Shown: positions 39,028 through 42,537 of the stretch, in pieces | Layout: every line of letters starts with the position of its first letter | How positions within the stretch are numbered: the stretch's first letter is position 1 | DNA from: an uncultured Gammaproteobacteria bacterium | GTDB taxonomy: Bacteria; Pseudomonadota; Gammaproteobacteria; HyVt-429 | NCBI GenBank assembly: GCA_947259975.1 | Contig: CAMYOD010000003.1 | Span: forward strand, 120,517 to 184,516 | Direction of reading: 5' to 3' | Length of the DNA stretch: 64,000 nucleotides | Program-made: the position numbers and the translations under genes | The notes under the pieces: model-generated | What the model was told of the DNA's origin: nothing | What the model saw: the letters and a program-made list of their open reading frames with translations, nothing else | Databases searched by the model: none

Positions 39028-39303
39028 ATGCCGGTCACACCGTCTTTCCGCATCACCTTCTGTCTGCTTGCCATAAACGGCGGTGCCCATGCCGGCGAGG
39101 CGGACGTCACCAGCGCAACTATCAGTTGCACCGATGACATTTGCCGAATCAGCGCCACATTACGTCACGCCGACGCAAACCCCCACACAAATCAGGTGAA
39201 TCCGTCGCCCGAACCCGCGGCGCGATGGGGTGATCCGCGGCGGTGGAAAATATTTTGGAATAAACTGGGCGACCCGCCGTCTAAATCACGGCAGACAAGT
39301 TAA
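39028..39303 (+). CDS. Small secreted protein with a CX4C pair
   Basis: A 91-residue hypothetical protein. Residues 1-22 look like a signal peptide ending AHA-GE; the mature part has SCTDDICRI, two Cys four residues apart, then LRHADAN and a Pro/Trp-rich basic tail. The first half resembles the opening strands of secreted proteins with a TLRHAD motif, but the usual rest of that domain is absent, so it could be a shortened relative. Its stop lies 8 bases before the ECF sigma start, the strongest sign that it is a real gene and part of that operon. Confidence 0.5.
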   Translation: MPVTPSFRITFCLLAINGGAHAGEADVTSATISCTDDICRISATLRHADANPHTNQVNPSPEPAARWGDPRRWKIFWNKLGDPPSKSRQTS

Positions 39304-39311
39304 ATGTGACT

Positions 39312-39866
39312 ATGAATCCCGTTAAACGCTATTGCCAGTCGAGAGATCTGCTGAAGCGGCTCGAAGCGAGCCGTCCGCGCCTGTATCGCATGGCGTATGC
39401 CTGGTCGCGTAATCCGGCCGTCGCCGACGATCTGACGCAGGAGGCATTGGCCAAAGCGCTCAAGGGCGTGCGCAAATTGCGTGACCCCAAGGTACTGGAT
39501 ACCTGGTTATTCAGCATCCTGACCAACTGCTGGCGGGATTACCTGCGGCAGCGGCAGCAGACCGAAGACATCGACAATGTCACGCTGCTGCACGAGTCGA
39601 CGCCGGAAACCGAACACGACGAGCAGCGGCTCGTGAACAAGGTGCGCGAGGCCATTTATCGTTTGCCGGTCGGACAGCGCGAAGTGGTCACACTGGTGGA
39701 CCTGGAAGGTTTCACGTATTCAGAGGTAGCAAAAATTTTGGTGATTCCGATCGGTACCGTTATGAGTCGTCTCTGCCGTGCCCACAATGCGCTGCGCACA
39801 CGACTGCTGCGCGACTTCGATCAGAAGGCACCTGCCGAGGGAGCTCGCTTCAGGAGAGTCAAATGA
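39312..39866 (+). CDS. ECF-type RNA polymerase sigma factor
   Basis: A 184-residue sigma-70 family protein with only regions 2 and 4. Region 2: LYRMAYAWSRNPAVADDLTQEALAKAL and LDTWLFSILTNCWRDYLR. Region 4: IYRLPVGQREVVTLVDLEGFTYSEVAKILVIPIGTVMSRLCRAHNALR, a full helix-turn-helix. Start ATG 39312 is favoured; GTG 39306 is in frame. It overlaps the anti-sigma gene by 4 bases (ATGA), the standard arrangement for an ECF and its regulator. It would direct polymerase to a small regulon in response to an envelope signal. Confidence 0.92.
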   Translation: MNPVKRYCQSRDLLKRLEASRPRLYRMAYAWSRNPAVADDLTQEALAKALKGVRKLRDPKVLDTWLFSILTNCWRDYLRQRQQTEDIDNVTLLHESTPETEHDEQRLVNKVREAIYRLPVGQREVVTLVDLEGFTYSEVAKILVIPIGTVMSRLCRAHNALRTRLLRDFDQKAPAEGARFRRVK

Positions 39867-40582
39867 ACAACAAAGAGAGACTTTCGGACGAATTTCTGAA
39901 CGCCTTTGTCGACAATGAGTTGACGGCGGACGAGAAAGGCCAGGTTTTCACCCGCATCCATGAGGATGAGGTGTTGAATCGACGTGTTTGTGAACTTCGC
40001 AAGGTCCGCGACCTGGTGCAAACGGCATTCGCCGAGGTCCCGTCGGCGCCCGACCGCAGCGGCGCAAGCCAAGGCGCGCGTCAGCCTGTCGGACTCAAGG
40101 CAGTCGCCGGGCTGGTGTTGGGCATCGGCATCGTGCTGGGTTGGGTATTACACCAACCCAAGGCGCCCGAGCTTGCGGCCGCGATCGACGCGCCGGCCAG
40201 CGCACCCAGCCGCGCGTTACAGAAAGTCGTTCTGCACCTCAACAGCGGTGACCACGAAGTCATGACCGAAGTCCTGGATGAGGCGGAGAATCTCTTACGC
40301 TTCTATGCGCAGACGAACCAGTCGGCGCGGGTGGAGATCATTACCAACGGTGGCGGTCTCGATCTGTTGCGCGTGGGCTCGTCGCCGTTCCAGGATCGCA
40401 TTCGGCGCATGTACGAACGCTACGACAATCTGGTGTTCGTCGCATGTCAGAACTCTATCGACAGACTCCGCAAGGAGCGTGGGTTTACCGCGCGACTGCT
40501 GCCGGAGGCCGTCGTGATCGACTCTGCTGTGGCGCAGCTCATGCGGCGCCAACATCAGGGGTGGGCCTATATTCAGGTCTAA
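39863..40582 (+). CDS. Anti-sigma factor with C-terminal DsrE-like domain
   Basis: A 239-residue membrane protein of unusual design. Residues 1-56 are a cytoplasmic anti-sigma-like helical domain (SDEFLNAFVDNELTADEKG) without the zinc HX3CX2C motif. Residues 77-97 (VGLKAVAGLVLGIGIVLGWVL) form one membrane helix. Residues 118-239 fold like DsrE: KVVLHLNSGDHEVMTEVLDEAE, ARVEIITNGGGLDLL, VFVACQNSI with Cys195, and a QHQGWAYIQV ending. The topology places the DsrE domain in the periplasm, where it could sense sulfur or redox signals (inference). Confidence 0.85.
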   Translation: MNNKERLSDEFLNAFVDNELTADEKGQVFTRIHEDEVLNRRVCELRKVRDLVQTAFAEVPSAPDRSGASQGARQPVGLKAVAGLVLGIGIVLGWVLHQPKAPELAAAIDAPASAPSRALQKVVLHLNSGDHEVMTEVLDEAENLLRFYAQTNQSARVEIITNGGGLDLLRVGSSPFQDRIRRMYERYDNLVFVACQNSIDRLRKERGFTARLLPEAVVIDSAVAQLMRRQHQGWAYIQV

Positions 40583-40633
40583 CTCTATATTTTAATTATT
40601 ATTATTCGTTCTAGAATTCGACTGGAGGGCTAT

Positions 40634-41074
40634 ATGAAGAAGTTGATCGCAGTACTCATGATGTCAATGGTGGCCTTGGTGGCCGGTAATGCTATGGCCA
40701 GCGGCTATGGCAAGCAGAAAGTGGCTTACCACATCAACTACGATAACGAAAAGCGTATCGGCGGCGCGCTGCGCAACATCCAGAATCACATCAATGCCGT
40801 GGGCAAAGAGAATCTGGATCTGCGTGTCGTTATGCACGGTAAGGGCTACAAGGTCCTCGAGCTGGCCAACAACAATCCCAACTTCCAGCAGAAGGTCACC
40901 AACCTGAAGGATCAGGGCATCAAATTCAACATCTGCGCCAACACGATCCGCGGCAAGAAGATCAACGTCAAGAGCGATCTCTATGACGTCGACGAAGCCA
41001 GCGACATCGTGCCCAGCGGTGTGGCGGAAATCGCTAAACTGCAGCAGGAAGGCTACGCCTACGTTCGTCCGTAA
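40634..41074 (+). CDS. Secreted DsrE-family protein
   Basis: A 146-residue protein with a signal peptide (MKKLIAVLMMSMVALVAGNAMA-S) and a complete DsrE fold: KVAYHINYDNEKRIGGALRNIQNHINA, DLRVVMHGKGYKVL, IKFNICANTI with a lone Cys101, DIVPSGVAEIAKLQQEGYAYVRP. It has TGGAGGG 8 bases before the ATG and a strong terminator after the stop. It aligns with the C-terminal domain of the preceding anti-sigma factor, so sensor and likely target share a fold. It may bind or carry persulfide sulfur in the periplasm. Confidence 0.85.
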   Translation: MKKLIAVLMMSMVALVAGNAMASGYGKQKVAYHINYDNEKRIGGALRNIQNHINAVGKENLDLRVVMHGKGYKVLELANNNPNFQQKVTNLKDQGIKFNICANTIRGKKINVKSDLYDVDEASDIVPSGVAEIAKLQQEGYAYVRP

Positions 41075-41094
41075 GCGAGAGTCACGCGCAAATG

Positions 41095-41124
41095 AAAAGC
41101 CCACCTCACGGTGGGCTTTTTTTT
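41095..41124 (+). terminator. Rho-independent terminator of the ECF/DsrE operon
   Basis: An exact 11-bp stem AAAAGCCCACC/GGTGGGCTTTT with loop TCAC, followed by an unbroken T-run, about 20 bases after the secreted DsrE stop codon. Confidence 0.92.
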
Positions 41125-41340: not shown

Positions 41341-42537
41341 GTGATACTACACGCCGTCTTTCAGCTCCCATGGTGGGGCTACGCACTCATCGCGCTCGCA
41401 TTAACGCATATCACCATCGCCAGCGTGACGATCTTCCTGCACCGTCATCAGGCGCACCTGGCCCTCGACCTGCACCCGATCGTCAGCCACTTTTTTCGCT
41501 TCTGGCTCTGGCTGACCACGGGTATCACCACCAAGGAATGGGTGGCGGTACATCGTAAACATCACGCCAAAGTGGAAACGCCGGAGGACCCGCATAGCCC
41601 GCAACAAATGGGTATACACCGCATCCTCTGGCTCGGCGCCTTCGCCTATCGGCGCGAGGCCAACAATGCGCAGACGCTGGAAAAATACGGTTTCAAGACA
41701 CCGGACGACTGGCTCGAGCGCAACCTCTACGCCCGGCATGCCTCGCTTGGCCTGATCCTGATGCTGGTGATCGATGTTTTCTGTTTCGGCGCCGTCGCCG
41801 GCCTCGCGATCTGGGCGACGCAAATGATCTGGATTCCGTTCTGGGCCGCCGGCGTCATCAACGGCATCGGTCACTACTGGGGCTACCGCAATTACGAGGT
41901 CGGCGACGCCAGCCGCAACATCGTGCCCTGGGGAGTCATTATTGGCGGTGAGGAGCTGCACAATAACCACCATGCGTTCGGAAGTTCGGCGAAGTTTTCC
42001 ACCCGTCGCTGGGAATTCGATCTCGGCTGGAGCTATATCCGCGGCCTCAGCGCCCTGGGGCTGGCGCGGGTCAAGAAGGTGGCACCGGTACTGGTCATCG
42101 ACGAGGCCAAGCAGCGCTGCGATCTGGATACCGTGCGCGCCGTGATCGGCAGCCGCTTTCACGTCATGGCCCGCTTCGCGCGCGAGGTCATGGGTACCGT
42201 ATACAAGGAAGAACTGCGTCAGGTCGATCGACACGATCGCGACACCTGGACGCTGATGAAACGCGCGCGGCGTTTATTATCGCGGGAAACCCGGCTGCTC
42301 GACGACGTCAGCAAGAACTGGCTGCAAGAGCTGTTGCAGCGCAATCAGCGTCTGCAGACCGTCTACGCCATGAAGGAGAACCTGCAGTCGATCTGGACCC
42401 GGTCTGCGACGACGCAGGAGCATCTCGTGCGGGCACTCGAGGATTGGTGCAAACAGGCCGAGGCGTCCGGTATTCAGGCCTTGCGTGACTTCTCCAGGAA
42501 ACTGCCGAGTTTTTCTCTCGCCCCTGCAACAGCTTAG
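41341..42537 (+). CDS. Acyl-CoA/phospholipid delta-9-type fatty acid desaturase
   Basis: A 398-residue integral membrane di-iron desaturase. The three histidine boxes are HRHQAH (about residue 38), HRKHH (about 77) and HNNHH (about 205), separated by paired membrane helices. It introduces a cis double bond into membrane fatty acids and is usually cold-induced. The C-terminal 140 residues beyond the third box are longer than in minimal desaturases and look helical, a feature seen in some proteobacterial members. It starts at GTG. Confidence 0.92.
   Translation: MILHAVFQLPWWGYALIALALTHITIASVTIFLHRHQAHLALDLHPIVSHFFRFWLWLTTGITTKEWVAVHRKHHAKVETPEDPHSPQQMGIHRILWLGAFAYRREANNAQTLEKYGFKTPDDWLERNLYARHASLGLILMLVIDVFCFGAVAGLAIWATQMIWIPFWAAGVINGIGHYWGYRNYEVGDASRNIVPWGVIIGGEELHNNHHAFGSSAKFSTRRWEFDLGWSYIRGLSALGLARVKKVAPVLVIDEAKQRCDLDTVRAVIGSRFHVMARFAREVMGTVYKEELRQVDRHDRDTWTLMKRARRLLSRETRLLDDVSKNWLQELLQRNQRLQTVYAMKENLQSIWTRSATTQEHLVRALEDWCKQAEASGIQALRDFSRKLPSFSLAPATA

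Follow-up and report, generated by a model that had tools for sequence, protein, structure and literature searches.

A predicted ECF sigma/membrane anti-sigma module with a periplasm-facing DsrE sensor domain in sulfur-oxidising gamma- and betaproteobacteria

The window analysed here is a 64,000-nt stretch of DNA from an uncultured Gammaproteobacteria bacterium, and all coordinates are given in its numbering. Its core module consists of three genes (39312–41074), for an ECF sigma factor, for its predicted anti-sigma factor in the membrane and for a DsrE protein that is secreted; a terminator follows (41095–41124). The features are as follows.

39028–39303 (+): CX4C ORF, judged to lie outside the system; probable gene remnant with the promoter in its 3' end
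39257–39281 (+): ECF-type promoter GGAATAAACTGGGCGACCCGC-CGTC, a conserved motif ~30 bp 5' of the sigma start codon
39312–39866 (+): ECF sigma factor; ATG start at 39312, with an in-frame GTG at 39306
39863–40582 (+): anti-sigma factor, 239 aa, from AlphaFold2 models and family matches of its members
40214–40579 (+): DsrE-fold sensor domain of the anti-sigma, from structure and profile matches
40445–40447 (+): codon of Cys195, the sole outer-domain cysteine of the anti-sigma, from alignment counts
40634–41074 (+): secreted DsrE protein, 146 aa, with Cys101; Pfam DsrE
41095–41124 (+): intrinsic terminator, a stem followed by a T-run; RNA fold −27.3 kcal/mol, z −4.6

The sigma ORF, its ATGA overlap with the anti-sigma gene and the 51-bp gap before the secreted DsrE ORF were all as originally predicted, and RNA folding bore out the single strong terminator proposed to close the operon. 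The original prediction was of a four-gene unit, of which three genes stand (sigma, anti-sigma and secreted DsrE) and the proposed first gene, the CX4C ORF, does not. No family was found for this ORF among Pfam and other family models, no counterpart adjoined the orthologues checked, and its GC by codon position (0.62/0.54/0.58) was not gene-like when set against ~0.7/0.6/0.4 in its neighbours. One family member has a longer reading frame, part of which is similar to the N-terminal 41 amino acids of the ORF. The 3' end of the ORF, last codons included, overlaps the conserved ECF promoter that serves the sigma operon, so transcription of sigma should begin 3' of most of the ORF. Family, neighbourhood, promoter position, remnant likeness and codon-position GC all led us to reject it as a secreted partner, and its sequence marks it as a probable gene remnant.

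Neither dsrF nor dsrH occurs at the locus, which sets it apart from the DsrEFH/TusBCD complexes, whose genes occur together (dsrE, dsrF, dsrH or tusD, tusC, tusB). Downstream, the product of 41341–42537 (+) is 398 aa long; Pfam matches its N-terminal part to a fatty-acid desaturase (E 5e-16) and its C-terminal part to the transposase family DDE_Tnp_ISL3 (E 5e-16). In 26 of 80 loci, an ORF cluster of similar size lies close to the module, so this fusion may be conserved rather than inserted.

The sigma factor matched Pfam Sigma70_r2 (E = 1.5e-15) and Sigma70_r4_2 (E = 2.3e-13) and scored above the cut-off for TIGR02937, which upholds its assignment as an ECF sigma factor; it holds Sigma70 regions 2 and 4 only, as do group IV (ECF) factors. 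The anti-sigma gene lies directly 3' of the sigma gene in relatives with both genes complete, and it follows and overlaps its sigma gene in the order seen for class I anti-sigmas. The predicted motif 5' of sigma corresponds to the autoregulated promoter with ECF-type −35 and −10 elements that is characteristic of ECF factors.

AlphaFold2 models of the anti-sigma, built from 65 relatives, comprise N-terminal helices (residues 9–57), one membrane helix (~81–96) and an outer DsrE domain (~118–239). When the N-terminal 79 residues were modelled alone, the few Foldseek matches were mostly ECF anti-sigma chains (ChrR, RskA, MucA, RsiW, RslA), each weak (E>0.5); the best VIA Z scores were 7.9 for ChrR, 6.1 for RslA and 5.5 for RsiW. 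At E<=0.1, zf-HC2 was matched by 19/65 members, RseA_N by 8/65 and DsrE by 27/65. The zinc motif Hx3Cx2C occurred in none of the 65, which places the family outside the ZAS subclass and led us to reject zinc-type redox sensing by these helices. The cytoplasmic Cys43 (VCELR; codon 39989–39991) was kept in 62 of the 65 members despite the lack of a zinc motif.

Structure prediction supported a DsrE fold for the C-terminal domain of the anti-sigma. The outer domain was modelled at pLDDT ~94–98, and its top ten structural matches were all DsrE-type proteins, the next, unrelated row scoring 6.8. Z scores were 18.3 for MTH1491 (1L1S), 17.3 for ST0148, 13.8 for YchN, 12.8 for DsrE (2HY5) and 12.5 for TusD (2D1P), and the sequence profile of the domain retrieved 1L1S at E = 5e-17. 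The window's anti-sigma missed the Pfam DsrE gathering score (12.8 bits vs 22.7), and the best Pfam DsrE E-value among the 65 members was 2.6e-06; because the Pfam score is below threshold, we filed the domain under DsrE/TusD (PF02635) by fold and profile. The proposed homology between the DsrE regions of the anti-sigma and the secreted protein was recovered by BLASTP (E = 4e-8, 22% identity). In a tree, the anti-sigma DsrE domains formed one clade separate from the secreted ones (support 0.79), which fits a single event of DsrE/anti-sigma fusion.

The secreted protein matched Pfam DsrE at E = 9.9e-11 and has an N-terminus that reads as signal-peptide-like. Its orthologues at four loci are 62–65% identical and occupy the same place. 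Among the matches listed from a plasmid search, only secreted-DsrE-like half matches occurred, and the literature that we found describes no role for secreted DsrE proteins.

Cys195 is the only cysteine in the outer part of the anti-sigma and was invariant in all 65 relatives, although it played no part in the search pattern that retrieved them; it was also invariant in a separate alignment of 25 sequences. The secreted DsrE proteins carry a cysteine in the same column (54/54). The cysteine proposed to be shared by the two proteins (Cys195 and Cys101) thus falls in one alignment column in 119 of 119 sequences, and its conservation among orthologues has no exception on either side. In the model, Cys195 ends the third beta-strand (190–195), right before helix 196–206, which is the position of the DsrE-family cysteine, and it aligns with the cysteines of MTH1491 (1L1S) and ST0148 (2PD2). 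A lone outer-domain cysteine excludes an intramolecular disulfide; going by sequence, persulfidation, thiosulfonation or an intermolecular mixed disulfide remain as candidate modifications, and Cys195 could also be structural instead of reactive. Metallosphaera DsrE3A, which forms a Cys-thiosulfonate with tetrathionate and hands it to TusA, provides a precedent for the chemistry proposed at Cys195 (PMC4175335). We consider it very unlikely that the DsrE domain senses sulfite or another sulfur compound as a ligand, with no covalent cysteine chemistry. Such sensing would accord with Sinorhizobium meliloti RpoE1/RpoE4 and their anti-sigmas (ECF26), which respond to sulfite and thiosulfate with no DsrE domain described (PMC3511301), but it is at odds with an invariant cysteine at the position of the DsrE-family active cysteine and with the reaction of the DsrE3A cysteine with tetrathionate.

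The pairing of sigma with an anti-sigma–DsrE fusion recurs in dozens of other genomes. The module was retrieved at 80 loci of named genomes and is kept across many gamma- and betaproteobacterial families; most of these genomes belong to sulfur oxidisers (Sulfuricella, Sulfuricaulis, Thiobacillus, Thiohalobacter, Thiohalophilus, Sedimenticola) or are MAGs from groups of that kind. Many of the MAGs are related to one another and incomplete, so locus and genome counts are not independent. When 348 genomes were drawn from the phylum, they gave three full-length anti-sigma matches, all in the window's class and none outside the gamma- and betaproteobacteria. The most frequent layout is divergent, with DsrE and then a porin gene on one side and sigma and then anti-sigma on the other; in the window's group, unlike this layout, the DsrE gene lies 3' of the anti-sigma. 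Among the predicted co-targets beside the module, the commonest is the gene for this outer-membrane porin, whose product matched Porin_O_P in two of four members tested.

Several loci depart from these layouts. Two (L063, L064) carry tandem sigma/anti-sigma copies, one with a divergent DsrE-porin pair and the other with a downstream DsrE gene, each behind its own promoter, and this duplication may separate two signals. Many Acidiferrobacter-type loci (L079–L097) have no DsrE gene nearby and have a lactonase-type beta-propeller gene (PF10282) directly 3' of the anti-sigma. At L183:12050-13833, genes for a thioredoxin-like protein and a Sulf_transp protein (PF04143) follow the porin gene, possibly extending the DsrE-porin operon.

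A conserved motif, GGAATA-N16-CGTC, lies 5' of sigma in 71/77 loci and is also present ahead of the divergent DsrE-porin pair, in 29/33, the motif having been defined on the same intergenic regions that gave these counts. Word counting in intergenic regions returned GGAAT-N17-CGTC in 29 of 31 loci. The window's promoter has GGAATAA at −35 and CGTC at −10, with a spacer of 16 between GGAAT and CGTC, one shorter than the motif. A position matrix run over the 64-kb window placed its best site at 39257–39281 (25.2 vs 11.4 for the next). Across 53 module-bearing genomes there were 323 motif matches vs 149 for the reversed pattern. In the window's genome the reversed control gave 14 matches and the motif itself nine, most of which are therefore chance; full matches with support from position were found only at the sigma operon and soxB, and a site with one mismatch, near the second soxY (L216), is no more than suggestive.

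Elsewhere, sites were found 5' of secreted DsrE genes (L206, L207, L211), Sulf_transp genes (L198, L205), a rhodanese gene (L203) and a cytochrome c gene (L204), these places having been chosen partly for a good motif match. A site precedes soxX in eight genomes (G083, G206, G252, G154, G170, G236, G125, G126) and soxB in seven (G083, G206, G261, G236, G125, G126 and the window's own). A systematic scan found five sites within 1.2 kb upstream of ~43 soxY genes, vs 0.05 expected, and none among the matches listed from 35 soxY-positive genomes without the module. The contrast between genomes with and without the module gave P = 0.012 for dedicated sites and P = 0.002 with operon fusions included (Fisher tests, with hand-counted group sizes). 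In two genomes (loci L181, L182), soxX, soxY, soxZ, soxA and soxB directly follow the anti-sigma gene, and another locus (L138) has the order sigma-antisigma-soxYZ. Most genomes gave no site before sox, and the predicted control of sox is therefore lineage-specific. Among 275 genomes of the class, 54 had the full-length protein, and all 54 had soxY or aprA, vs 96 of the 221 others (Fisher 5e-17, relatedness ignored). The spread of the module among genomes and the ECF promoters upstream of sox and sulfur-transport genes thus lend independent support to the link to sulfur, which was originally guessed from the fold.

Two further explanations bear on these targets. Proteolysis often controls membrane anti-sigmas, and this, together with the weak likeness of the N-terminal domain to MucA/RseA and ChrR and the porin gene as the commonest co-target, would suit an envelope stress response of the RseA/DegS kind. 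The DsrE domain would then only bind or shield the anti-sigma, its cysteine would be structural, and the signal would be a misfolded porin or secreted DsrE. We think there is little chance of this, since a structural role hardly accounts for an invariant, partnerless cysteine common to sensor and secreted protein (119/119) and since porin quality control does not fit sox targets. Slightly less improbable, though still unlikely, is a periplasmic sensor of thiol stress or metal(loids), in which Cys195 would report oxidants, arsenite and the like and the sulfur genes would be induced for repair or detoxification. The single conserved cysteine, the thioredoxin-like protein after the porin in L183 and the change of Thioalkalivibrio DsrE/F-like genes under arsenite (PMC6620896) all favour such a sensor, but the predicted targets (sox, Sulf_transp, rhodanese, cytochrome c, DsrE) are not detoxification genes, and co-occurrence with sulfur-oxidation markers is complete.

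We consider it likely that these genes form an ECF sigma/membrane anti-sigma module of sulfur-oxidising gamma- and betaproteobacteria that switches on sulfur oxidation through a periplasm-facing DsrE sensor. Computation gave the order of the genes, their folds, the invariant cysteines, the conserved promoters and the links to phyletic distribution and to sox; sigma binding and sequestration, its release, the chemical signal and a donor role for the secreted DsrE are inferred. When no signal is present, the N-terminal helices of the anti-sigma would keep sigma at the inner membrane. The signal would modify Cys195, most likely with a periplasmic sulfane-sulfur or a thiosulfate/tetrathionate-derived group. 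Released sigma would transcribe its own operon together with the DsrE gene. Elsewhere in the family its targets would extend to the divergent DsrE-porin operon, soxXYZA, soxB and sulfur transporters, and sulfur uptake and oxidation would thereby come under positive feedback. More tentatively, and with somewhat less than even probability in our judgement, the module may work as a trans-envelope relay, in which the secreted DsrE would take up periplasmic sulfane sulfur or thiosulfonate and pass it to Cys195 of the anti-sigma; the covalent sulfur group would itself be the signal that frees the ECF sigma and turns on reduced-sulfur uptake and Sox oxidation.

Little is known of how sulfur-oxidising proteobacteria sense extracytoplasmic reduced sulfur and turn on Sox. 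The module offers a defined sensor, one mutable residue, a promoter sequence and predicted targets, and named isolates are at hand for its study (Thiohalobacter thiocyanaticus, Thiohalophilus thiocyanatoxydans and Sulfuricella sp. T08). If our reading is true, a sulfur-carrier domain joins the list of anti-sigma sensors and secreted DsrE proteins gain a possible role. No anti-sigma with a DsrE sensor was found in the open literature, and an earlier entry in a supplementary table of an ECF classification is possible.

ECF control of sulfur oxidation is already known; the module described here has a predicted sulfur-oxidation regulon and a DsrE sensor on its anti-sigma that is unreported in the literature that we found. 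S. meliloti RpoE1/RpoE4 resemble the module as autoregulated ECF sigma/anti-sigma pairs controlling sulfur oxidation (sorT), whereas their anti-sigmas are of the COG5662 type, with no DsrE sensor described, and their targets are sulfite oxidase genes (PMC3511301). In Arcobacter butzleri, the parts of the report considered here describe effects of ECF sigma2 and sigma7 on the sox cluster soxCDXYZAB, from mutants and microarrays, and hence a similar ECF control of sox; that species belongs to another phylum, and those parts report no DsrE sensor (PMC3445524). Class I anti-sigmas (RseA, MucA, ChrR, RskA, RsiW) share with the module an adjacent ECF gene and often one membrane helix, and their N-terminal helical anti-sigma domain has a putative counterpart in the module, with weak matches; the module's anti-sigma, unlike them, has DsrE as its outer sensor and no zinc motif. 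The sulfur carriers of the MTH1491/DsrE/TusD family (PF02635), including DsrE3A (PMC4175335), have the fold and the single-cysteine position in common with the module's proteins, but the known members are soluble and cytoplasmic, whereas the module's DsrE is either fused to an anti-sigma or secreted.
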